Assembly (NCBI RefSeq): GCF_019059575.1
Contig: NW_024881538.1
Location: 558,001 to 622,000, forward strand
Length of the DNA: 64,000 nt
Direction of reading: 5' to 3'
From: Amphibalanus amphitrite
Taxonomy: Eukaryota; Arthropoda; Thecostraca; Balanomorpha; Balanidae
The notes beneath the pieces were generated by a model. It was not told the DNA's origin. It saw nothing but the letters and a program-made list of their open reading frames with translations, and made no database searches. This document shows, piece by piece, positions 13,011 through 63,229 of this stretch (its first letter is position 1; each line of letters begins with the position of its first letter). The position numbers and the translations under genes are program-made.

Positions 13011-13928
13011 AGACAGACTGGAGATATGCTGGGCCAGTGACCCTGGAGCTAAATCCGGTCGAGTCGGAGCGCTAGCTTTCCTGGCCGCGTGTAAATACAG
13101 CTGAGGGCCGGAGTGAAGGCGACTGGGACCGACCGCCCCCTTCTCCAGGCGCGGCGCGCTCCCCCGGCTGTTATTTCTCTGTTACGACTGCCCCCCCCCA
13201 CCCCCACCTCCACTGGGAGTTGTAACTTTTATGCACCCTTATGAAGTGACCCGCAGTCGTTAAACGCTACGACCGGGCCGCAGAGGTCTGAAACGGATGC
13301 GTCTCATGCCGTCTGGGCGATGTGCGGTGCTGCGTTTTGCTACCACCGTCTGGGCTGCTGTCTGGTGGTGCGGAGGCGCATCCCCGAGCTGCGGCCGGCT
13401 GTCGCGCTGTCTGGAGGGGCGCATTCCAGACCCATTAGTGGAAGTGATTGGGCGCTGCTGGCGGCGGCATTCGTTTATGTTCGTTTGGCGGGTCCGTTGT
13501 GCGCCCGTGGGTGGGAGATCATCCGCCGTGGGCGGCCTGTCAGGCGACGACATTATACAGTAGCGGGAGTGACCAATAAGAGAGCCATGTGATGTATGCT
13601 CGGGTGGTGGCTGTGCTGAGGTGGTCCGGTCAATAGGTCGCCAAGGTGGGCCCCACGTCTTTTGGAGCGATGACCGGCAATGTATTCAGAAGTGTGACTT
13701 ACGTTTGACCTACCCCTGGCCCGTCCCCTATACCTCGCATCAGACGCGAGCGACGACTGCCTCTCTGTTTAATGTCATTATTTTATTGTGCCCTTTGGAT
13801 GCGTCTGCTACCCACCCTGTTTCCGTATGACTCGATGGACGATGCGAGTCCGCCCATGTGTCCTGTATATGACCCTACTATGTGTCCGGTGACCCATTTA
13901 TGACCCTTTCTTCCCTTGTCCGTTACAG
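13011..13928. other. probable intron upstream of the CDC42SE exon
   Basis: No coding exon is recognised. The stretch ends in a pyrimidine-bearing acceptor (TTACAG at 13923-13928). A C-run lies at 13190-13205. The short frames at 13260-13592 occur on both strands over the same G/C-rich DNA and show no domain. Confidence 0.4.
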
Positions 13929-14111
13929 AAGCGGCGGAGAATCGACCGCTCGATGATCGGCGAACCGACCAACTTCGTCCACTTGGGTCACGTCGGCGCC
14001 AACGACATGCAGCAGCAGGGCAGCCGGTACCTGAACCAGCTGCAGACTCAGATGTGCTCCAAGGGCCAGTACCAGAGCAATGGCCAGCAGGCAGTGCGGG
14101 TCAACTCGTGA
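13929..14111 (+). CDS. CDC42SE: CDC42 small effector protein, last coding exon (partial)
   Basis: The exon begins right after a TTACAG acceptor and gives 60 residues to a TGA at 14109. It opens with KRRRIDRSMIGEPTNFVHLG followed by HVGANDM. This matches the CRIB motif of the CDC42 small effector (SPEC/CDC42SE) family almost residue for residue. Those proteins are about 80-odd residues: a short N-terminal part with a Cys pair that is palmitoylated, then a basic stretch and the CRIB. They bind GTP-loaded Cdc42 at the plasma membrane and influence actin. The C-terminal part here is Gln/Ser-rich, with an LNQLQTQMCSKGQY segment matching the family's I-Q-x-Q-M-x-S-K-G motif. The N-terminal exon with the Cys pair was not found; it may lie upstream of or beyond the window. 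Phase 0 is assumed at the acceptor. Confidence 0.88.
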   Translation, partial: KRRRIDRSMIGEPTNFVHLGHVGANDMQQQGSRYLNQLQTQMCSKGQYQSNGQQAVRVNS

Positions 14112-21219: not shown

Positions 21220-21561
21220 GGCCAGGGTTCATAATGTCCAGGGCACAATGTGTCCAGTGCTCGAATTGGCCAGTGCCTTGAATTGGCCAGTGTTCACATT
21301 GTCCAGGGATTACATGGTCCAAAAGTGGCCAACTGGCTGCAGATAGGGTAAATTCAAAGAGGCCAGGGTTCATAATGTCCAGGGCACGATGTGTCCAGTG
21401 TTCAAAATGGCCAGGGTTCATAATGTCCAGGGCACGATGTGTCCAGTGTTCGAAATGGCCAGGGTTCATAATGTCCAGGGCACGATGTGTCCAGTGTTCA
21501 AAATGGCCAGTGCCTTGAATGGGCCAGAGTTCATAGTGTCCAGGGATTACATAGTCAACCC

Positions 21562-21688
21562 AACCCAACCAAACCTAACCTAACCTAACCTAACCTAACC
21601 TCACCTAACCTAACCTAACCTAACCTAACCTAACCTAACCTAACCTAACCTAACCTAACCTAACCTAACCTAACCTAACCTAACCTAA
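21562..21688. repeat. interstitial arthropod telomere-type array (CCTAA)n
   Basis: About 25 copies of CCTAA (TTAGG on the other strand), with one CCTCA variant, lie head to tail. TTAGG is the standard telomere repeat of most arthropods. Here it sits in the loop of a foldback element, so it is interstitial. A shorter array accompanies the same element family at 36503-36542. Confidence 0.9.
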
Positions 21689-21747
21689 GGTAATGATGTT
21701 TGCCTACCAGGGATAAGGAAAAAGTTTCTCGCATGAATAGATTGCAA

Positions 21748-21860
21748 GCAATAGTAAATCAAATATTTTTAGGTTAAGTGGTTATGCATCAGGCTTCAGG
21801 CCTTCGGCCTGAAGCCAGATACATAACCACTTAACCTAAAAATATTTGATTTACTATTGC
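21748..21860. repeat. near-perfect 113-bp palindrome with GGCTTCAGGCC core
   Basis: The sequence folds around GGCCTTCGGCC at about 21803. Arms include ATTTTTAGGTTAAGTGGTTA and its complement, with two or three mismatches (GCATCAGG against CCAGATAC). The same palindrome, with an extra duplicated core, is at 36303-36450, flanked in both places by GTGCCGAAGGCAATGCCTTA and a TTAGG/CCTAA array. This identifies a repeat family. Confidence 0.85.
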
Positions 21861-22287
21861 CTGTAATCTCTCCTAAGGCATTGCCTTCGGCACTGCACTG
21901 CTTTGCATTGAGCTGATTCCGTGTTTTTTACATAATGACGTCACTTTCAGTGACTATGTAATCCCTGGACATTATGAGCTCTGGCCCATTCAAGGCACTG
22001 GCCATTTTGAACACTGGACACATCGTGCCCTGGACATTATGAACCCTGGCCATTTCGAATACTGGACACATCGTGCCCTGGACATTATGAACCCTGGCCA
22101 TTTTGAACACTGGACACATCGTGCCCTGGACATTATGAACCCTGGCCTCTTTGAATATACCCTATCTGCAGCCAGTTGGCCACATTTGGACCATGCAATC
22201 CCTGGACATTATGAACTCTGGCCCATTCAAGGCACTGGCCATTTTGACACTGGGCATAGCGTACCCTGGACATTATGAACCCTGGCC

Positions 22288-32418: not shown

Positions 32419-33871
32419 AATTAAAATGAAATCGGACTTACTCCACAAGAGTTCGTTGGGTCGGAGCTTTCGAATTGTATTACAATTCTTCGTCAGCGAG
32501 AGTCGTATCGGATGTTAAGATCGAATCGAAGGTACAGTGCGGATCGAACAAAATATGGGTCGGACAGGAGGGTCTCTGAGGCAACTAGTTGGTCTTGAAA
32601 TAAACATACAAACACTGGGAAAACACGTGAATAATAACAGGATGCACACTTACTAGAAAAAGCCTGTAAAATGGGTATAAAACACACTAGTAAAATATCT
32701 AATACAAAATATAGGCAGGTAGGTAAAAATACAGTTAATGACATGTAAAAAATTGCATAGATTAGGTGCAAACAGTACCTAAAGCAGAGATAAAGCTTTA
32801 CAAAAACACGAATAGTAAACTAGACTAAGATATAAAATATCAAAATGATAATTTCTATAAATGAACTTTTTAACGGCAGAAACGGCGAATAATGGGAAGC
32901 CACCTGTCTTGCAGCAGGGCACCAGAGTTGCGGTTCACATTCGCGTCATTGGGTGACACTAGGACGGCTTCCCGCCGTCCCACGGTCCGAATGTAGGCCG
33001 ATTCGAGAAGGAGTCTCATCTGGTGGTGGCAGGCACGGTTCAGGATTTTGGCGTCGTCGAAGGCCGGCGTGCAGTCCCGGTGCGTGCTGAACGCTGAAGC
33101 GTTGGCTCTGGAGCGGACCGAGCCAGCCCAGCTCTCTCGGTGCTCGCGGACTCTGGTTCCAAGTTCTCGGTCCGTTTCTCCGATGTAGACGACCGGGTCA
33201 CCTTCTACCCGGCAGGAGCACTCGATGCAGTAGATGACATTGCTCTCCTGCTGCTTGGGTAGACGGTGCTTGGCTTGGCTACAGAGGAGGGTCCCGATGG
33301 TCTGCGACGGCTTCGACACGAGCTGAATGCCGATCTTGTTGGCTTCTCGCTTCAGTTGGTAGAAGCAGGGACCAGCGAACGGAACCGAAAGAGTTCATTT
33401 ATAGAAATTATCATTTTGATATTTTATATCTTAGTCTAGTTTACTATTCGTGTTTTTGTAAAGCTTTATCTCTGCTTTAGGTACTGTTTGCACCTAATCT
33501 ATGCAATTTTTTACATGTCATTAACTGTATTTTTACCTACCTGCCTATATTTTGTATTAGATATTTTACTAGTGTGTTTTATACCCATTTTACAGGCTTT
33601 TTCTAGTAAGTGTGCATCCTGTTATTATTCACGTGTTTTCCCAGTGTTTGTATGTTTATTTCAAGACCAACTAGTTGCCTCAGAGACCCTCCTGTCCGAC
33701 CCATATTTTGTTCGATCCGCACTGTACCTTCGATTCGATCTTAACATCCGATACGACTCTCGCTGACGAAGAATTGTAATACAATTCGAAAGCTCCGACC
33801 CAACGAACTCTTGTGGAGTAAGTCCGATTTCATTTTAATTCACAATTCATCTCCACATCATGTCTTTAAAT
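32419..33871 (-). mobile_element. 5'-truncated Penelope-like element with inverted 3'UTR copy
   Basis: A 13-bp direct repeat CTAAAGAATGTTG flanks the element (32406-32418 and 33872-33884). Reading on the minus strand, the order is an inverted copy of the 3'UTR (33393-33841), a truncated coding piece (33393-32870), then the 3'UTR itself (32866 down to 32419). The two 3'UTR copies are 448 bp each and look identical: the 92-codon frame in them is the same on both strands. Inverted or tandem partial copies with variable target duplications are typical of Penelope-like elements. About 30 extra bases lie between the right arm and the right duplication. Confidence 0.88.
32870..33393 (-). CDS. Penelope-like element GIY-YIG endonuclease, 5'-truncated
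   Basis: The minus-strand frame ends in a TAA at 32870-32872. The 149 residues from the alternative start at 33319 contain N-V-I-Y-C-I-E-C-S-C at 27-36 and V-V-Y-I-G-E-T at 43-49, the two halves of the GIY-YIG nuclease core, with the catalytic-type Arg and His in R-V-R-E-H at 56-60. Upstream in the same frame, VPFAGPCFYQLK and then an I-G-I-Q-L-V-S-K-P stretch correspond to the linker that joins the reverse transcriptase to the endonuclease in Penelope-like proteins. The reverse transcriptase itself is missing: the frame runs into the inverted 3'UTR copy at 33393. The enzyme would nick DNA for target-primed integration, but this copy cannot be autonomous. No internal stop is seen in the remaining part. 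Confidence 0.85.
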
Positions 33872-34734: not shown

Positions 34735-35960
34735 CAGTACAGAGAGCCTCCTACTTCGACTACTTGCACAGAGAGCCTCCTAGTGTACATACAGCTAAGC
34801 TTCTACAGGTCGAGCGCCGGTCTCTTGTACGTACAGAGAGCCTCCTACTGTTACAGAGGGCCTCCTGTTTGTCTAGGGGGCCTCCTATTTGTCCAGGAGG
34901 CCTCCTGTTTCTCCAGAAGGTCCCCTATTTATCCAGGGGGCTTCTATTTTCCAGGGGGATTCCTCTTTATCTATAGGGCCTCCTACGTGTTCAGGGGCCT
35001 CCTATTTGTCCAGGGGCCTCCTATTTATCCAGGGGTCTTTTATTCGACTAGGGGTCTCATATTTGTGCAGGGGCCTCCTATTTGTCCAAGGGTCTCCTAC
35101 TTGTCCCGGGGCCTCCTTTTTTAAGGGACTCCTTTTTGTTAAGGGAGCCTTCTATTTGTCCAGGGGGCCTCCTATTCGTACAGAGGGCCTCTAGCTCCTA
35201 CTTGTCCATGGAGCCTCCTATTTGTTCAAGAGGTCCCCTACTTGTCCAGGGGGCCTCCTATTTGTCCAAGGGACCTGTTATTTTTCTAGGGGGCCTCTTT
35301 GCCCAAGAGGCCTCCTATTTGTCCAGCGTGCCTCCTACGTGTTCAGGGGGCCTCCTATTTGTCCAGGGGGCCTCCTATTGGTTAAAGTAGCCTCTTATTT
35401 TCCAAGCGGCCTCCTATTTATCCAGAGGGCTCCTATTTTTAGGGGGCCTCCTCTTTATCCAGGGGGCCTCCTTCTTGTTCAGGGGGCCTCCTTTTGTGAA
35501 AGGGGCCTCCTATTTGTCCAGGGGGCCTCCTTTTGTGAAAGGGGCCTCCTGTTTGTCTAGGTCTAGGACCTTCTATTTGTCCAGGGGGCCTCCTATTTTT
35601 GCAGGGGGCCTCCTATTTGTACAGAGGGCCTCCTACTTGTCCATGGGGCCTCCTATTTGTCCAGGGGGCCTCCTTTTGTGAAAGGGGCCTCCTGTTTGTC
35701 TAGGTCTAGGACCTCCTATTTGTCCAGGGGGCCTCCTATTTTGCAGGGGGCCTCCTATTTGTCCAGGAGGCCTCCTGCTTGTCCAGAGAGCCTCCTATTT
35801 CTCCAGGGGGCCTCCTGTTTTCCGGAGGCCTCCTACTTGTTCAGGGGGTCTCCTACTTGTTCAGGGGGCCTCCTATTTGTCCAACAGGGCCTCCGATTTG
35901 TCCAAGGGGCCTCCTATTTAAACAGAGAACCTTTTATATGAACATCGGACCTCCGTTTGC
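34735..35960. repeat. 1.2-kb minisatellite, about 19-20 bp unit
   Basis: The consensus unit is GGGGGCCTCCTATTTGTCCA, repeated about 60 times with 1-4 differences per copy and small length changes. All plus-strand frames stay open for long stretches (A-S-Y-L-S-R-G-P-P-I-C-P-G-G-L-L-F-V-Q), which explains the many frames here. There is a higher-order duplication: a segment containing CTAGGTCTAGGACCT appears at about 35558 and again at about 35699. Confidence 0.9.
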
Positions 35961-36229: not shown

Positions 36230-36556
36230 TGAATAATGACGTCATAATTCTTCTCGCGGCGAAGCAGCGCAGTGCCGAAGGCAATGCCTTAGGAGAGATT
36301 ACAGGCAAGAGTAAATCAAATATTTTTAGGTTAAGTGGTTATGTATCTGGCTTCAGGCCGAAGGCCTGAAGCCTGATGCATGACCACCTTCGGCCTGAAG
36401 CCAGATACATAACCACTTAACCTAAAAATATTTGATTTACTCTTGCCTGCAATCTATTCCTGCAAGTAACTTTTTCCCTATCCCCGGTAGGCAAACATCA
36501 GTAGGTTAGGTTAGGTTAGGTTAGGTTAGGTTAGGTTAGGTTCCTTTTTGTAATTA
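36230..36556. mobile_element. palindromic element with TTAGG tail (second copy)
   Basis: This is the relative of the loop sequence at 21690-21950: ATGACGTCA near both ends (36236-36244 and 36558-36566), GTGCCGAAGGCAATGCCTTA, the palindrome at 36303-36450, then TTTTTCCCTATCCCCGGTAG, GCAAACATCA and (TTAGG)8. Here the palindrome core is duplicated (GGCCGAAGGCC and CCTTCGGCC). The first copy reads ACCAGGGATAAGGAAAAAG at the matching place. Confidence 0.75.
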
Positions 36557-40445: not shown

Positions 40446-43400
40446 GTGAGTATAAGTTCATTTGCTGAAAATTATGTTTTTACTGTTTTTTTTTCCTAGT
40501 TTGTGATTACTGTAACATCTTCGATTTTTTATCACATTACTGCTCATTTTATTTTTATTTTGGTTGCAGTAAAAATGTAACTGAATACCAATGCATGCTA
40601 GTAGTGCTTTAGCAGTACATCAGAGGCCAGTGTGTTTGTCAACCAGTTGAGACACTCGAACTGTTGGTTTACAGGTGTGTGGCGACATTCACGGCCAGTT
40701 CTACGATCTGAAGGAGCTCTTCAAGGTGGGAGGTGATGTGCCCGACACCAACTATCTGTTCATGGGCGACTTTGTCGACCGGGGCTTCTACAGCGTCGAA
40801 ACATTCCTCCTTCTGCTGGCACTGAAGGTAAGACCTGCATAGGAACTGGTATTGAGACGGGTTCATGTATTTTGGGTGCTAAGAGGTATTTTAGACTGGG
40901 TAGAATCCATGCCTTGCATTTCATTACACGTTTTATTGCCTGCAGGTGCCCTGACATGATTTTTTCGGTTTTGATTTTTCTATGAGAAATAACCGTGGAC
41001 GTAATTTGTCACTTGATTTGTCATGTCTTCTGCAAACACAAATTATTTATGGCAATTGACATATTGATATTGTTCATGACAGGATTAGGTCTCCTCAAGA
41101 AAATTCGACGGCAGCTGGTACCTAATTGGAGCATGTTGAATTTCCCCTCAAACACGATTGTGTACGTAAAAGTGAAATTTCACCAGCTCACCAGAAAAGT
41201 GAGACTCACCAGATAAGCCTCAGCTGCCGATCACGTCCCCCCCCCCCCCCCGTTTCCAGGTCCGTTATCCGGACCGGATCACGCTGATCCGCGGAAACCA
41301 CGAGTCGCGTCAGATCACCCAGGTGTACGGCTTCTACGAGGAGTGTATGCGCAAATACGGCAGCGTCACCGTCTGGCGCTACTGCACAGAGATCTTCGAC
41401 TTCCTCAGCCTCTCGGCCATCATCGACGGAAAGGTAGATACCGCTCAGCTAGCTTTTTTTGGGACTGCAGAGTGCTGAAGCTGGAGTAATATCCAATGTT
41501 TGGTCGGATTGTCGGCGATGTTTCCGCTAACACTGGCCTGCGTTTCAAAACTTTTTTCAAAAGGTCGGAGGTTTCTCAGCTGTTTTTATACAAGTTTTGT
41601 GTGCTGAATCCGAAAAAGCCGCCCATTTTTTTTCGATTAGCTCGAGTTTTCAAACTATGTCAAGGATAAAAGTTCACACACTGATGCATTAATATGCATA
41701 TTGGAGTGGGCATGCTGATGTATTTTTCCCCAAGGTTGGATATTTCTCAGCTGTTCTAACACAAGTTTCGTGTGCTGAATTCAAAAAAGCTATCCATTTT
41801 TCTCGATTAGCTCGAGTTTTTACACTATGTCAATGATAAAAGCTCACACACTGATGTATTAATATGCATCCTGGAGTGGGCATACTGATGCATTGTTCCC
41901 CACAGTTGGAGATTTCTCAGCTGTTCTATAATACAAGCTTCGTGTGCTGAATCCAAAAAAGCTATCCATTTTTCTCCATTAGCTCCAGTTTTCACACTAT
42001 GTCAAGTATAACAGCCCACACACTGATGTATTAATATGCATATTTGAGTGGGCATACTGATACATTTTCCCCAAGATTGAAAATTTCTCAACTGTTCTAA
42101 TGCAAGTTTTGTGTGCCGAAATCGGAAAAGGTATCCAATTTTTCTCGATAAGCTCGAGTTTCCACACTATGTCAAGGATACAGACCGATGCATTAATATG
42201 CACATTGGAGTGGGCATACGGATACATTTTGCACTTGTTTAGGTCCCATCTCGATTATTTCCCAGAAAACTGGTGATTATACTGAAGAGCAGGTAGAATG
42301 TTTCCATAAAGACATACGTGTGATGAAAAACGGTACGAGGGTCGGTGGGACGTCAACTTCCTGGCGGACTATTGTTGCTGCTTGAAGAAGGGACGTCCCA
42401 TGTGCTCAACACAGTCGGAAATCCGTGAAAAGGCCATTTGTGTCGCAGCGTTGCGTGTGTACTGTGATCGGAATTCACTTATAGTGGGTCAATTTGTAGT
42501 TTAAAACATATATATGCTTCCGTGGGATTAACTATACTAAGCCAATCAGCATGGCTTTGTTCATATGGGCAAAACAACGTATCTTAAAAGATCGAGCTAA
42601 TCGAGCAAAGCGGATTCCATTTCCGGAATCAGCGTGAAAAACTGACCTATAAACGGTTCAGAAACCATTGACCTTATAAATCACGCAGACCAGTGTAATC
42701 GTGGCTCATGTTTCAAAGAGTATATGAAATGCAAGCACTATGTATGTTTATGAGACGCTTTCAAATGTCAGGCACTATAAGAGGACTGTCAGACACCATC
42801 AAGATATTCTGCGTGCCCTGACCGACTTTGTGCCCTTATTCGGCATATATTGTGATTTGTGCGTGCCCTGCTGACTTTATGACCGTTTATTCTGCAGATT
42901 TTCTGCGTGCACGGCGGTCTGTCGCCCACGATAAACACGCTGGACCAGATCCGCACCATCGACCGAAAACAGGAGGTGCCACACGACGGCCCCATGTGTG
43001 ACCTGCTCTGGTCCGATCCGGACGATATGCAGGTCAGGCATGCACGACACCGTTAGTGACACTGACACTGACATTGATAATGACACTGTCACTGCCGTCC
43101 GAAACTGACTCACTGGACGGGGATTTGACGCGGTATGGTATGCAGCAGAACATTTGTTTGTGGTTTGTGACTACACATAGTAATTGTGCTTGTACGATAT
43201 TACGGGAAAATGAATTTCTTCGCGCGCCGATCATGCTGTATTTACATGGGTATTATGTCCGTATTGAGGGACTGGTCACCTGAATCTCTAATTCTCATCC
43301 TACTCGCGGGTGGGCCTCGTTTTAATCGCAGCGCTGTCCAGTTACCGTCTCTCCCCCGGCCTTCCTCATGATCGTCTCTCCTCAACCCTCGAACGATTCA

Positions 43401-46400
43401 TTTCCCCTTGACCGTTCCTCACGACTGTTCCCCTCGACCATTTCCTCGACCATTCTCCTCGACCTTCCTGACCGTTTGAGCGACTGATTCGAGACTTATG
43501 TGACTTTCGCTGCCTGTACGCCGCTAGGAGGGTGACGTGACTTACGACGACGTTGGGTGCTGAATCCTAATATTGATATACTTTCTGACTTCTATGTGAC
43601 CCGTAGCCTTGGGGGATCAGCCTGCGTTGCGCCCGATACCCATCTTGTTCAGGTGACATCTATGATATGACCTCGCTGTGACCTCTGCTACCAAAGTGCT
43701 GAGGGGTGGATCCACGTAGCGTAGACTACCTGTCGGCCCTTATGCCATGTGTGACCTTTGACCTCTGTGGGCCAAGACTGAGTCCGTGCAACGCTGACCG
43801 ACTACCTGGTTGGTATTTGACCTCAGACCTCTCTCGTTTAACCTCAGGGCTAGGGGGGGGGGGGGTGAGTCCGCGCAGCGCCGGCTATCTGTCTGTGACC
43901 TCCTCTGACCTGACCCGCAGGGCTGGGGGGTGAGTCCGCGCGGCGCCGGCTACCTGTCTGTGACCTCCTCTGACCTCTGTGACCCTCAGGGCTGGGGGGC
44001 GAGTCCGCGCGGCGCCGGCTACCTGTCTGTGACCTCCTCTGACCTCTGTGACCCACAGGGCTGGGGGGTGAGTCCGCGCGGCGCCGGCTACCTGTTTGGG
44101 TCGGACGTTGTGCAGCAGTTCAACCGTAACAACAACGTGGACATGATATGCCGGGCACATCAGCTGGTTATGGAGGGCTACAAGTGGCACTTTGACGACA
44201 CTGTGCTCACTGTGTGGTCAGCTCCCAACTACTGCTATCGGTGAGTGGGCGACGCGGAGGGAAGGACGCGGCTGGGGCTCCTCGGCCCGCTGGCTGAGAT
44301 TGAGGTGAACGGGCTGGGGTTTGTGTGTGGCGGGTGGTGGGTGTTTAACCCTCGCCCTGGCAGGGCATTTTTCATAACACGGCCTGGCAGGGGGTTGATG
44401 CGACCCCCCTCGCGATTGGCTCCTATGGCACCTAGAAACACCAAATTTGGTAGGTAGGTCGGTCCTCTGGAGTTCTCGCCGCTATGTAAATTTGGTTGCT
44501 CTAGGTCAATATTTAAGTTTTTTAATGTAAAAATTTCGCTAAAAACAGGTCAAAAGTTTTTCGCTTATAACTTTTGATCTAATTAAGATAGAGCAAAAAG
44601 AAAAGCACCAGTGAACTCAGCACGTCAAGGCGCATTGAATGACATACTTAATTGCTTGCTTAAGTGTACTTAAAGCTTTTCTTAATTATTAAGTAAACTT
44701 TAATTAATAAATTAAGTTCAAATAAACCAAATTGCATCATATCGCATATCATTCGATTCGGCTGATCACCAGGAACAAAATGACACCATTTTTAAGCTCT
44801 AGCGTCATCATGTGCCAAGTTATTGGCAAAAACGTCATTTGACCTCAGTTGATCTCAATTGACCTGACCCATGGATAAGTACATCAAACAAAGAAGCACC
44901 AAGTGGCCTGCTGTTAAGTACTGTGGTTTCAAAGCACAAACGTGATAGAACGAAGCGGATATCTCCAGTATTTTCCGAATTTAGTATTTTCCCACAGGCT
45001 TAACACCAGTATAACGCCTTTTGGGGCGACTAACGGAGCGAGCGAGAGGGTGGGCCTTGCACGTGCGAAATTTCGAGGGGGTACCTCCAGCTGACTTGTG
45101 CACGGCACCCTACTAACCGGTCTCTAGCGATGTGCCAAATTTGAGCACAATCGGCCCAGCCGTTCTCGAGATCTGCAAGCGGCACCCTGCACGTGCGCAC
45201 GTGCAAAATGGGTCCCAACTGACTTGTGCACGGCACCCTACTAACTGACCCCTAACCGTGTACCAAATTTGAGCGCAATCGGTCCAGCCGTTCTCGAGAT
45301 CTGGAAACGACCCCTGCACGTGCACACGTGCAGCAGCATCCCAACTCTGGCACATGGATATTCATTGCCTAGTGGGTGCCTACCTACGTGCCAACTTTCA
45401 GCGCAATCGGCCCAGTAGTTACCGAGATATTGCAACTATTACAAAAGTGACACCTCTTCGTTGTGCATAAGGGGTCGCCCACATGCATCGAGAATCGTCC
45501 AATACTTGGTAGAAGGAATGAACCTACCCTACAAAAATTACCGCATGTAAATCGGTCAAGTGGTTGCTGAGATATAAGCGTCGCAGAATCGTGACCGCGG
45601 CCGGCCGGCCGGCCGCTCATACTCAGAAATTTCCGTTATTCTACGTAAGACTCCGCTCGCTTCGCTCGCTCCGTAATTACGACGTAATGACCTCTAGGCT
45701 CTCACTGACCTGACATAAAAAAACCCGAACTATATGTTATTCAACTCGGTGAACTTAGCACATCCTGGAAGTTTGAAGGAAATCAGTCCAAAACTGTGGG
45801 TTGGACAGGTGCGTAAAGAAAATTCAAATTTGACCATGACCTTGTACCGGTTTTTCTGACCTGGTGACCTGACCCAAGGTCACCCGGACCTGAAATTTTC
45901 AGGTCATATGTAAAAAGGTTGCCCCATAGGCTGTACCAAATTTGGCGGCCGCCATTTTTAGGCAATCTTTAAAAACCTTACGGGGTTGCATCAACCCCCC
46001 TCCCCCTGCCAGGGCGAGGTTTAAGTGTTTACGTGACTGGTCGGAAAATGGTGAGTTTGAGCACTGTTCCTGGTTTGAGCAGGTTGTGTTGGTGGTTTTG
46101 AGCTTACGTAGGTAGGTGCTGACTGCTGATGTACCACATTGTTTGATGACTTGGCGTGACTTGCGTCATTGATGGTACACTCGGGGGCAGATTGGTGTTC
46201 CACCACTCCCTACCCATCGGGCTCCCATGGCTCAGGACTGGCTGCTGCCAGTGGCAGCACTGGCAGCACTGGCACTGGCAGGCAGTGCTGAGCACTGCAG
46301 TGCTGAGGGCAGGCAACACTGGCAGCAGCCAGTGCTGAGCCATGGGAGCCCGATGGGTAGGGAGTGGTGGAACATCAATCTGCCCCCGAGTGTACCTACT

Positions 46401-57803: not shown

Positions 57804-58088
57804 GGGACGATTAAGGTATGAAAGGGGGTGCTAGGTCAAAATAAATGTGATATTCGTGTCTCCCGCCCCCAAAAGGACCTGACAATATTTTTTGACGCGA
57901 TTCTGAATCAGACTCTGTATTCGTTGCCACTTGCCTCTGCTGACGCTAACTTACGGACAATACTTGCATGGCATGGGAAGAAACCAACAAGGATTGAAAA
58001 CACTTCCGCAGTCAATGACAAAACATGCATAGTTGTTCTCACATTTACAGCTATTTTCACACAAACGTTATATTCACAGGCGGCAGGG

Positions 58089-59936
58089 ATGAGTCAATTA
58101 CCTCATGCCAGGCTGCGGCCACAACAGCGGCAGCAAAGGAGGCTCCTTCCTCCAACCTGCAGTGACTACAGTCAGCGAGCGGGCTGCGAGCGTCAGGACT
58201 GCCGCGCGCTGCACCTGTGCCACCGCTTCCTGCTTGGTCGATGTGCGACGGGCAGCGGCTGCTCCCTGTCCCACATGCTGTACACGCCCCGGAACCTCCG
58301 CTTGCTGGTGCCGCTGGGCTGGTCCTCTCCTGGCGACATGGCCCGGGCGCTGGACATAATGCGGCAGCGTGCTCGCGGTCACAACTTCAGTGTGTGTCAC
58401 ATGTACAACATGGGCGTCTGTACAGCAGCCGACTGCGTGCGACTGCACGTCTGTCACCGGCACGTCTTGGACAAATGTCCACTGGACAACTGCGGGCTCA
58501 TCCACAGTGTGGTGGACAGCGCGCACAACATGCACGCCCTCATGAAGGCCGGTCTGAGCGACACGCCCGTTTCAGAGGTGCTAAGACGTCTGAGAGAACA
58601 GATACGCCGACAGCCGACCAGGCCTAGTCTCTGCAAGTCAGTCTACAGCGGACAGGGCTGTCAACGCCACTGCCTGCGATTGCACTACTGCGAGGCGTTC
58701 GCGCGCGCACGCTGCAAGTACGGGGAACGGTGCTACAAGAGCCATAGCCTACGGGACGCGCACAATGAGCGCGTGCTAACATTCTTCGGATGGACAGAGG
58801 AGGAAGTGTTGGGTGTGCTCAAGGCGAAGGACAGTGCCATCTTAGGGTCACCGATCGCAAAGGATGAGACTCCTGCCAGAGGGCACGATGATGCGGAAGG
58901 AACCGGCTACCAGGATCTCACCGAAGAGTCAGGATCCGGGGAGGGAACTGAGACAATCGCCAAGAAAGATGGCGCGAAAGAGAGAAAGCGAGATCGGGAG
59001 GGTCTTGAATGGACCAAAGGAAAAGCAGAAGAGGAAGTGGATATGGAGAGACAAGAATGGCGCCGCAAAGAGGAGGAATGGAACTGTCGACAGAAGAATT
59101 GGGAGCGTTTAGAGAAAACCTGGCAGGAGAAAGAAAAGGAATGGGAGTCGAAAGAGCAAAAATTTGTGCAAAAAGAGAAGCAACTGCAGGAGGAGCTTAA
59201 AACATTAACCGAGAAGCAGACTAGAGATCAAGAGACATTGGCGATCCATGAACGCGAACGGGAAGCGTTGGAGCAACAGAGAGAACAGGAACAGAAAAAA
59301 CGAGAGCACGATGAGGAAAATTACAGGAAAGAAATGGCCGAAAAGGAAGCCCAATGCCAAGAGTTGACTGAGAAGCACACGCGACTCCTGACCAACTACA
59401 CAGCCAGCGAGGAGACCGTCACCACTATGAAGCGGATGAACTTTGAGCTGGGGCAGCAGCTGGTCACCCTACAGATGCTGTTGAAGGAGTCTGAGGGTCG
59501 CGATGTCGATAAAGCAAAAGCACAAGAAACCAAGAAAGGGAAAGACGCAGAAACTCAAGCTGACACAATTCGTGAGCAGATTAAGAAGCAGCGGGAGTGT
59601 CTCGAGTGCAGCATTTGCCTGGGCGTATTCAAGAGGCCGGTGACCCTGGGATGCTCACACACGTTCTGTCGAGGCTGCATTGAGGAAGCCAGCCATGCTC
59701 AGCCGCTGAGGTACGGGGGTGGTCAGTCGCGCCAGTGCCCGATGTGTCGACAGATGACGAGTTCCCTGGTGCCGTGCCTCGCCCTGGAAAACCTCGCCAG
59801 CTGCCTGTCCGATGACGCCCCAAAGCAGCAGCCAGGGGCCGTTGGTGTCCGCAGGACAGCCAATGCCCACACATTGGGGTATCTATATAGGGTAGGGTGG
59901 GATAGTGTGAACATGCGGGGCAATTACATAGTGTGA
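58089..59936 (+). CDS. RING-type protein with six PARP12/ZAP-like CCCH zinc fingers and a coiled coil
   Basis: 615 codons, one exon. ATG 58089 follows a TATTCACAG acceptor at 58079; the frame is open upstream but looks non-coding. CCCH fingers come in three pairs: C24/C33/C38/H42 with C44/C52/C58/H62; C103/C111/C116/H120 with C122/C130/C135/H139; C182/C191/C195/H199 with C201/C209/C215/H219. Each pair is followed by a helical stretch ending in a G-W or G-L segment, as in the RNA-binding arrays of PARP12 and ZAP. Residues about 290-500 are a Glu/Lys/Gln-rich coiled coil. A C3HC4 RING (C507, C510, C522, H524, C527, C530, C550, C553) ends the fold and predicts E3 ubiquitin ligase activity. No PARP domain follows. 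Function is inferred: RNA-triggered ubiquitination, possibly antiviral. About the last 16 residues and the stop lie in a transposon end. It differs from makorins in finger spacing and RING type. Confidence 0.85.
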   Translation: MSQLPHARLRPQQRQQRRLLPPTCSDYSQRAGCERQDCRALHLCHRFLLGRCATGSGCSLSHMLYTPRNLRLLVPLGWSSPGDMARALDIMRQRARGHNFSVCHMYNMGVCTAADCVRLHVCHRHVLDKCPLDNCGLIHSVVDSAHNMHALMKAGLSDTPVSEVLRRLREQIRRQPTRPSLCKSVYSGQGCQRHCLRLHYCEAFARARCKYGERCYKSHSLRDAHNERVLTFFGWTEEEVLGVLKAKDSAILGSPIAKDETPARGHDDAEGTGYQDLTEESGSGEGTETIAKKDGAKERKRDREGLEWTKGKAEEEVDMERQEWRRKEEEWNCRQKNWERLEKTWQEKEKEWESKEQKFVQKEKQLQEELKTLTEKQTRDQETLAIHEREREALEQQREQEQKKREHDEENYRKEMAEKEAQCQELTEKHTRLLTNYTASEETVTTMKRMNFELGQQLVTLQMLLKESEGRDVDKAKAQETKKGKDAETQADTIREQIKKQRECLECSICLGVFKRPVTLGCSHTFCRGCIEEASHAQPLRYGGGQSRQCPMCRQMTSSLVPCLALENLASCLSDDAPKQQPGAVGVRRTANAHTLGYLYRVGWDSVNMRGNYIV

Positions 59937-61715
59937 ATAACACAAAATTACGGAAAATCCATAAGTGGCATGACAATAAGACCAATGAGAGAAATTATCG
60001 TAACTAAAAGGGCTATCATATGAATGGGGTTTAAAGTTTCAGGGAATGAAGATGTTGACGCACAGTGTAAAAAATCAATTTCGCAAGGATAAACGCCTAA
60101 CAACACGTCATTGCAACTTCATTGCAGCGCAAAATCTTGCATTGTTAGCGCCTAATACGCAACGGCTTTTGTTGTACAATGACCTAATCAGTGCCTTCAA
60201 TCCACGAAATTTGCTTTTGAACCCTGTTTTTAAAAATTGCAAAATAACTTTTAGCGTGGGGTAATTTGAACATAGTGTGAGAATTTCAATGAAGACAGGG
60301 ATAGCTCCGAAAAAACAACGCTCCCAGTTTTTTTGCCAATATTTTTGACCCAAAGCAGTAGCAGATAAGTGATGCCAGTTTTATAAAATTTACGTCTAAT
60401 ATCCGCCTAATGTCTGGCATTTTCGTTGATTTTCCGTCCAAAAATGTTAAAGTCAACTATTTGTCCAAATATGTCCGAAAATTATGCAGCTATCAACACT
60501 CAAAACCGTCATTTATATTGCTTTATCATGTAATTTTACCAGCCGAAAAGTGTTCATTATATTGAGAGCTTAACAAGCTTTCCATTCGCCAATCAATGCT
60601 ACGCACGATTACTTGATAAAAATGCTTAAAGGGACCCTCCCACCTTCAAAAAAGTTATTGAATTGGCATGAAAGTGATGTCCCTTGGTTCAGAAAGAGCG
60701 AAAACGAATATCTACCAAATTTCACCGAAAAATATTCACTGGTTTTCAAGATATTAGGCTTTTACTTTTGTTTACTTTTTGGGATCTCCCCTGATACTAG
60801 CGACTTTATTTGGAAGCAATAATTTGGCAGCCTTAAAGTGCGGCAGACGTTGCGCGCAAAGCAGCGTATACCACCACGTGTTAACGATGGTTTTAGTCTA
60901 AGATTTAAAAATCATTAGATCTCCGCTGACGTCACAAATTCTAAGGGGGCATTCCAATGCATTAGCCCCTTAGAATCCGAAAACTGCAAGTTTGAAATTC
61001 CATATCTTCGAATTAAAGCATTTTTCGATGTTGTGAGTGCCCAAACCGCTATTTGCAGGCCATGGCCACCAATTTGGCTATCTCAACTCAAAACTAATGT
61101 TAAGGTGGGAGTGTCCCTTTAAGTGTGGCAGGTCATCGTCCAACGTTGTCCAGACTTCTATACCTTTGTGCAATCAATTCTGAATTGGACATTATAAAGA
61201 ATCGGAACTCCGAATGTCCAGGTTCCGATTGGCACCACTATAACAGATGAAGTAAGGTTTGGTAGAGTTTTTATCGAACGGAGATGATAGACGTTCTGCT
61301 AATTGAAGAGAGGCGAATTCTGTCAACTGACCGGTGTGCAGCGTGCAGATATTGATACTCTGCAACTCTTATTTTTGTTGTTGTGTTGATTTTTCAAGTG
61401 ATGGTATTTTTAGAATTGCTCTGTTTATGGGTCAAACAACATCGGTGCTGGCGAGACTATCTTTTTAATGGCAGGTAAAGACAGTATGTTCAAATTACCC
61501 CACGGTGGGGCAATTTGAACACACCGTGACTTGGTGGAGAAGTGATGCTATGCTATTCAAGGTATGCCCGGCTCGTCCAAAAATGAGGCTTGCATGGTGA
61601 AAGCAAGTGACACATGCGCTACTGAAACAGTTTTTCTTCATCCAGGGTTGAGCTGGAATTTGGTACAACGGAGAAGACGTAAAAATATGTTCAAATTACC
61701 CCACACTACCCTACC
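59884..61715. mobile_element. inverted-repeat element supplying the RING gene's stop codon
   Basis: The left end, AGGGTAGGGTGGGATAGTGT and then GAACAT, is an imperfect inverted match to the right end at 61689-61715, which on the minus strand reads GGTAGGGTAGTGTGGGGTAA and then TTTGAACAT. GTGGGGTAATTTGAACA-type words also recur inside at 60257-60273 and as an inverted pair at 61489-61520. A nested AGGGACCC element lies at 60626-61122. Boundaries are approximate and no target duplication was found. Confidence 0.55.
60626..61122 (-). mobile_element. AGGGACCCTCCCACC element, copy 2
   Basis: This is the inverted relative of 51611-52086, with TTAA at each end (60626-60629 and 61119-61122). The ends and the middle (GCCAAATTGGTGGCCATGGC on the minus strand) are conserved. 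Its short 69-codon plus-strand frame is not a gene. Confidence 0.88.
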
Positions 61716-62165: not shown

Positions 62166-63157
62166 TTTAGCGGTTCTTTTCTCTTAAAAAGAAGTCGGTC
62201 GTAGACGCGCATTTTTGGCCCCTACGTTCGCACGCCAATATCGTACGCCCAATAAATCTCTGACAAGTATTCATCTGATTAAGGAATAAGTTGCAAAAGA
62301 ACTGCAGTTGCAGTCTATACCTGAACTACCAATTTTGTTACGGCACTGTCGATATTCGTCAAAGTCGGAAGAGCTATTATGAAACACACTCGAATGACAA
62401 CGGATTCCTGTATTATTTCATGGATCAGATAAGACATGTATAGAGATAAATTGATAACAGCCCGCCGTGAGCATGCAACTTAACAACCAGTCCCAAGTTA
62501 TTTTCATAAACGTCTAATATAATTTATAAATCTTTTTGACTTTAACTAGATTCCAAGTAAGGGGACTTAGGTATCCCCCTGGCGGCTGAAATGTAAGTTA
62601 TAGTTAGGGCATAGCTCCTATAGATGACGCTCTGACGGCTGGAAACTGATATCTCGTCCCGTGATTACGCTAACAGCTATGCCGAACTTTTTTTGTGCAT
62701 GGTGATTCTTACACGAAAAGCTATGCTTACCAGCGTGCGATTTTTACTTTTCATCTTAGTTTTCGCTACTTTTAGGTACTTTACCTTGCCAAGTGCCCAC
62801 CTACTTTCAAAAGGTCAGCGCCGCCCCTGTCAATGCTGCGTGCTATCACCCATTGGCAGTGAGAAATATTGATCAATGAATGGCCATCGTCCAGCACCAT
62901 TTGTCTTTCCATTGGCTACGTTCGCATAGTATGCACTATGCATTAGTGATGTCAATCACAGAAAATCAGAACACCGCTACCAAACCAAATACAAACAAAG
63001 ACCATTGGAAAATACCGAAACCGAACCAATCGGTTGGACTGCAAATATCTATCTTATGCAACATATTCATTAGAAGAATGCCTACGTCTGATTTCTTAGG
63101 TGCACGCCGTTGCAAATGTATAAAAAACGCACAATGACAGATGACACGAAAATCGAA
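62166..63157. other. unassigned sequence between inverted copies
   Basis: AT-rich, no recognisable gene or element ends. It is bounded by inverted copies of the same tRNA-bearing repeat, so the whole 61945-63390 interval may be one unit. Confidence 0.35.
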
Positions 63158-63229
63158 GTCGCCGAGTGGATTCGAACAACCTACCTCGGAATCACCAGTC
63201 CGATACTCTAATCACTTCGCCACGGCGAC
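63158..63229 (-). tRNA. tRNA-like sequence (tRNA-derived repeat or pseudogene)
   Basis: On the minus strand 72 nt begin GTCGCCG and end CGGCGAC, a perfect 7-bp acceptor stem. An A-box-like TGGCGAAGTGATTAGAG and a B-box GTTCGAATCC are in place. The anticodon stem TCGGA/TCCGA closes an 8-nt loop CTGGTGAT instead of 7 nt, and the D stem is poor. The loop resembles CTGGTAA of a threonine tRNA with an extra base. The odd loop and the decayed inverted copy at 62102 argue for a tRNA-derived repeat over a working gene. Confidence 0.5.

Follow-up and report, generated by a model that had tools for sequence, protein, structure and literature searches.

Three ZAP/PARP12-class CCCH finger pairs, a long helix and a C-terminal TRIM-like RING in a single open reading frame

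In a 64-kb stretch of Amphibalanus amphitrite DNA (contig NW_024881538.1, positions 558,001 to 622,000; hereafter the window), positions 58089-59936 of the forward strand form a single uninterrupted frame of 615 codons plus stop, with no intron needed inside, which encodes three tandem pairs of CCCH zinc fingers, a long helical region and a C3HC4 RING in one chain. The fingers belong to the class known from ZAP and PARP12. Judging from the sequence, the most economical reading, which we consider rather likely, is that the product would be an RNA-binding, RNA-directed ubiquitin ligase of the RING type. A sequence-only reading of this DNA had already given the frame coordinates, finger counts and domain order, all of which the open reading frame and a motif scan bear out, and had placed fingers, helix and RING in one chain, as the single open frame does. 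The features are as follows.

58089..59936, forward: whole coding frame (open reading frame, third-position G+C, three-base periodicity over most, not all, of its length)
58070..58088, forward: candidate acceptor (3' splice site) whose last base is 58079, nine bases 5' of the ATG (read from the sequence)
58128..58367, forward: repeat 1, finger pair 1 (CCCH 58158-58214 and 58218-58274) and spacer (motif scan, Pfam, repeat alignment)
58365..58604, forward: repeat 2, finger pair 2 (58395-58448 and 58452-58505) and spacer (motif scan, Pfam, repeat alignment)
58602..58841, forward: repeat 3, finger pair 3 (58632-58685 and 58689-58745) and spacer (motif scan, Pfam, repeat alignment, structure model)
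58839..58976, forward: acidic linker, residues 251-296, isoelectric point (pI) 4.2 (composition)
58983..59522, forward: long helical stretch spanning residues 299-478, with coiled coil predicted for its opening and closing segments at least (structure model, heptad analysis)
59058..59144, forward: five Trp at exact seven-residue spacing, residues 324, 331, 338, 345 and 352 (heptad analysis)
59607..59747, forward: C3HC4 RING core, residues 507-553, TRIM-like (Pfam, sequence match, motif scan)
59748..59933, forward: C-terminal tail, residues 554-615, with no family of its own (Pfam, third-position G+C, sequence)

The finger array

The six CCCH motifs start at residues 24, 44, 103, 122, 182 and 201 and form three tandem pairs (residues 24-62, 103-139 and 182-219), each followed by a similar spacer, and the 18 Cys of residues 20-250 equal six times three. 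Pair 1 reads C-X8-C-X4-C-X3-H and then C-X7-C-X5-C-X3-H; with X3 before the His in every finger, pair 2 has X7/X4 twice and pair 3 has X8/X3 followed by X7/X5. Identity to repeat 1 is 28 percent for repeat 2 and 31 percent for repeat 3, and all eight zinc ligands per repeat, together with an N, an L and a G of the spacer, are identical in all three.

The whole protein matched the PARP12-like tandem finger model of Pfam (PF25261) over three stretches (3.4e-9, 37.2 bits; cut-off 27). Taken alone, pair 1 passed this cut-off (4.2e-9, 36.9 bits); pair 3 (3.8e-5, 24.2 bits) and pair 2 (1.5e-3, 19.1 bits) fell below it, yet the same model was still the best match for each. A profile of the three repeats found ZAP in the PDB at 3e-14, the next best match being at 5e-5, and Foldseek, run with a low-confidence model of pair 3 (predicted local distance difference test score, pLDDT, 57), ranked five ZAP chains first, with a best E of only 0.1; absence from the Foldseek results was not taken as proof and excludes no other family. 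The assignment of all three pairs to the ZAP/PARP12 class, which the sequence-only reading had proposed, is thus supported by the Pfam model, the PDB profile and the Foldseek ranking. That reading had also claimed that a PARP domain is absent, in agreement with our finding that neither PARP nor WWE is among the 15 Pfam families listed to E 10 for this frame alone, a list from which HMMER filters drop most matches above about 0.1. Three Pfam matches below cut-off were set aside: Torus on pair 1 (0.0081), zf-CCCH_4 on pair 3 (0.01) and Sec10_N on the helix (0.027).

The helix and the RING

The helical region comprises about 180 residues and is mostly helix. A whole-protein model built without relatives had a mean pLDDT of 48.8 and reached confident values only along the main helix, and no use was made of it for the fingers or the RING; in helix 299-435 the pLDDT block means were 78-96 over residues 311-430, and in helix 441-478 the pLDDT was only about 51-61. 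Hydrophobic residues recur at lags 7, 14 and 21 to a degree reached in 1, 3 and 0 of 2000 shuffles, respectively. After the five consecutive Trp heptads Phe and Leu continue in register, and the heptads are intact over residues 324-373.

The RING matched its Pfam family at 5.6e-10 with complete C3HC4 zinc ligands, and its best alignments were to TRIM5, TRIM30 and TRIM21. The linchpin Arg of active RINGs contacts E2 and ubiquitin, and the CPMCR end retains an Arg at this usual position, following the core. Across all six frames, the only hits of the RING pattern in the window were 59598-59747 and, with the canonical start, the overlapping 59607-59747. An NCBIfam rad18 identity, with 1.7e-5 on the RING alone and 24 bits against a cut-off of 175, was set aside. 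The TRIM order, in which RING, B-box and coiled coil follow one another from the N-terminus, is not that of this chain, where the RING is C-terminal and no B-box was among the Pfam families listed.

Gene model

Of the open frames listed for the window, the longest contains this one; reading is open from 57822, with an ATG at 58089 and a stop at 59934-59936. An N-terminal extension over 57828-58088 was rejected and the ATG at 58089 kept, because the upstream frame has no Pfam match and non-coding-like third positions. The candidate acceptor has a pyrimidine content of only 0.55 over 20 bases, a moderate value, and ends nine bases before this ATG, so that a non-coding exon upstream is possible. 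The third-position G+C is 0.74 in the fingers and RING, 0.56 in the linker and helix and 0.61 in the tail; the flanking DNA has 0.40 on the upstream side and 0.34 on the downstream side. Three-base periodicity, taken in overlapping 201-base stretches, exceeded the 95th percentile of the background (2.3) in 9 of the 11 stretches starting at 58050 to 59550; the two that did not were 58050-58250 (1.9) and 59550-59750 (1.2), and the values were low also in the next two stretches, 59700-59900 (1.0) and 59850-60050 (1.8). Because periodicity is low over the RING, this part of the model rests on the family match and the third positions, not on periodicity. Neither AATAAA nor ATTAAA occurs between 59901 and 61011, the first poly(A)-like signal being found at 61012. 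The protein is least certain over the last ~30 residues of its tail, and the true end may differ. Separate transcripts for the fingers and the RING are unlikely, because a single open exon keeps its coding character through the linker and the helix.

Proposed function and alternatives

In the mechanism that we propose, the three tandem CCCH modules would bind single-stranded RNA, the heptad helix would drive dimerisation or the formation of larger oligomers, bringing the RINGs together, and the C-terminal RING would recruit an E2 and attach ubiquitin to proteins that sit on this RNA or close to it. The role would lie in defence against foreign RNA or in the control of host messenger RNA (mRNA). 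The tetrapod ZAP finger domain binds both RNA and TRIM25, which is required for activity (PMC8102003), and the logic of our proposal would be that of ZAP, as the RNA-binding part, and TRIM25, as the coiled coil plus RING, placed in one chain. RNA binding, ligase activity and RNA sensing are plausible. The sequence shows which domains are present, their order, the finger class and the single open frame; RNA binding, the oligomeric state, ligase activity, the role in foreign-RNA defence or host mRNA control and any antiviral action are our inference. A more specific version, in which the protein would be an arthropod single-chain counterpart of ZAP-TRIM25, that is, an RNA-sensing ubiquitin ligase with a non-CpG RNA preference, assembled through a Trp-rich coiled coil and directed against viral or transposon RNA, is offered only tentatively.

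Several observations weigh against the RNA-directed ligase. The structural model of pair 3 is weak (pLDDT 57; Foldseek E 0.1 at best), and three of the five VIA rows matched ZAP residues 90-223, not one clean pair. In the middle of the helix, only 0.21-0.36 of the a/d places are hydrophobic in windows starting at residues 360-395, which makes a poor coiled coil, and the best heptad register switches twice along the helix. Because of these two features the helix does not form a single continuous coiled coil; a charged helix probably separates two coiled-coil segments.

The RNA contacts count on the same side. The key CpG contacts of human ZAP are K89, Y98, K107 and Y108 (PMC8102003), the mutants C96A/Y98A and K107A/Y108A are reported to lose antiviral activity (PMC9253567), and the R74/R75/K76 patch has been reported as mutated to abolish RNA binding. 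Read by eye on the ZAP-profile and three-repeat alignments, where the chain numbers are two higher, the residues at the places of K89, Y98, K107 and Y108 are H, T, S and L in pair 1, H, L, G and L in pair 2 and E, Y, Y and K in pair 3, so that the CpG contacts are kept at 1 of 12 places and the R74/R75/K76 patch at 1 of 9. ZAP-like CpG recognition is not predicted, because these contact residues are not kept. The second finger pair of ZAP itself also lacks the four contacts, and their absence here thus speaks against a predicted preference for CpG but leaves RNA binding untouched. With 33 K+R against 20 D+E, the finger region has a basic pI of 9.1.

The absence of ZAP's CpG-reading residues is also a point for the main alternative, to which we give about one chance in four, namely an Unkempt-like regulator of host mRNA, in which the fingers would select mRNA motifs, the coiled coil would dimerise the protein, and the RING would be structural or secondary, with no role in defence. 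Unkempt has the same domain order, a coiled-coil dimer, and binding of CCR4-NOT and PABPC (PMC11009413). The finger sequences here match ZAP/PARP12, and none of the 23 PDB chains matched to E 10 is named Unkempt; the linker of about 46 residues is not a long effector region; and the full C3HC4 RING matches TRIM ligases. The RNA-directed ligase remains the reading that we prefer.

The finger class would also suit a diverged relative of PARP12/ZAP that lost its PARP part, gained a RING and acts in an ADP-ribose or stress-granule role and not as an RNA-directed ligase, and a few species are reported to have ZAP/PARP12 sequences devoid of PARP (PMC8102003); we regard this as improbable, given that no WWE or PARP match is listed and that three finger pairs stand here against the four fingers reported for the ZAP N-terminal domain. 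A non-working gene, whether a recent copy, an unexpressed one or a false exon join, would account for the frame without intron, the missing AATAAA/ATTAAA and the periodicity over RING and tail that does not rise above background, and is nonetheless very improbable in view of 615 open codons with coding-like third positions, intact zinc ligands throughout and the intact heptads at residues 324-373.

Genomic neighbourhood and distribution

The window resembles animal nuclear DNA, with large non-coding stretches. Exons of a PP2A/PP4-type phosphatase catalytic subunit lie at about 40675-44241 on the forward strand (near 40675-40830, 41260-41433, 42898-43020 and 44095-44241; ends approximate); a 40-residue piece, 41272-41391, matched PP2A-C at 2.3e-18, and the other exons were located by typed words. 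This phosphatase is probably PP4. A small forward frame at 13926-14099 carries a CRIB (P21-Rho-binding) motif (Pfam 3.5e-5, above cut-off) and presumably resembles a CDC42 small effector. The phosphatase exons, as a conserved neighbour gene, and the CRIB domain show an animal-like gene neighbourhood, and a cellular animal gene is the best explanation of 58089-59936. In 24 further stretches of the window scanned with Pfam (273 frames of at least 70 residues listed), no family besides CRIB and phosphatase reached its cut-off.

Several repeats were also seen. The arthropod telomere unit is TTAGG, and a TTAGG-type array occupies 21574-21688, where 5 and 17 units flank one changed unit; in 21353-22155 the (AACCT)n array stands between two arrays of 48-base units (21353-21510 and 21998-22155), inverted copies by eye, in a foldback-like arrangement. 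A second TTAGG array, of seven exact units, is at 36506-36540, and a scan of the window for TTAGGG arrays of at least three units turned up none. Together with a CpG observed/expected ratio of 0.885, these arrays agree with an arthropod source, though only suggestively. The longest tandem array listed by Tandem Repeats Finder in the window has about 54 copies of a 20-base unit (34854-35919). A 134-residue frame on the reverse strand, 32966-33367, gave nothing in Pfam to E 1; it resembles the GIY-YIG end of a Penelope-like element. A transfer RNA (tRNA)-like gene on the reverse strand, 63157-63229, has an odd four-base anticodon (Rfam 33.1 bits; ARAGORN) and is possibly a tRNA-derived repeat.

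No second copy of the fingers or RING was found in the window by tblastn (best other E 0.37) or by the RING pattern, and five scattered single CCCH-pattern matches elsewhere in it look like chance. The wider collections searched were of viruses and prokaryotes and say nothing about animals: in viral contigs the whole protein gave 11 pattern matches and the three-repeat alignment 24, in genome contigs there were 67 matches, with 0 confirmed in each of these searches, and tblastn against phages gave no match.

Arthropods have been reported as apparently without ZAP/PARP12 homologues, in a study that took five fingers plus WWE as its criterion (PMC8102003). A search so framed would have passed over a finger-RING protein, and for an arthropod host the present chain would qualify the reported absence, with respect to the finger domain at least. 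A natural protein that holds the two parts together would further point to an independent linkage, elsewhere among animals, between ubiquitin transfer and RNA recognition by such fingers.

Comparison with known systems

The N-terminal RNA-binding domain of ZAP (ZC3HAV1) is the best sequence match and, with the low-confidence model of pair 3, the top-ranked fold match, and shares tandem CCCH pairs followed by helical spacers; it differs in having two pairs instead of three, and the present protein does not keep the CpG contacts, has no WWE/PARP match listed and has an added RING. PARP12 is alike in its fingers, whose Pfam model matches those here, and unlike in that no PARP or WWE match is listed and that RING and coiled coil are added here. 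TRIM25 and other TRIM ligases share the kind of RING and the coiled coil, whereas here the RING is C-terminal, no B-box/SPRY match is listed and RNA-binding-type fingers stand in the same chain.

RNF113 and makorin also carry CCCH and RING in one chain, in layouts that differ from this one, and the finger class of makorin, Roquin and RNF113 differs as well. The gene lists of PMC2478707 place CCCH and RING together in makorins, Roquin (RC3H1/2) and RNF113A, Roquin having one CCCH and an N-terminal RING.

The fingers of Unkempt number six. The sequence-only reading knew of no well-described family with exactly this domain order, a point that has to be corrected: in Unkempt (UNK/UNKL), a pair of CCCH clusters is followed by a coiled coil, through which the protein has been shown to dimerise, and then by a RING (PMC11009413). 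Unkempt binds CCR4-NOT and PABPC via motifs in its extensive disordered effector region (PMC11009413), against a linker of about 46 residues here. As judged by match names without direct alignment, the 23 PDB matches of the three-repeat profile include no Unkempt-named chain, and no Unkempt-named model was among the Pfam families listed for the protein or its pieces. ZAP/PARP12-class fingers in this order were not described in the literature searched by title and abstract start, a coverage mostly outside subscription journals. Because Unkempt shows CCCH clusters, coiled coil and RING in the same order, the domain order is already known, and the protein is a real and well observed variant of CCCH-RING proteins, whose unusual part is the finger class placed into that order.
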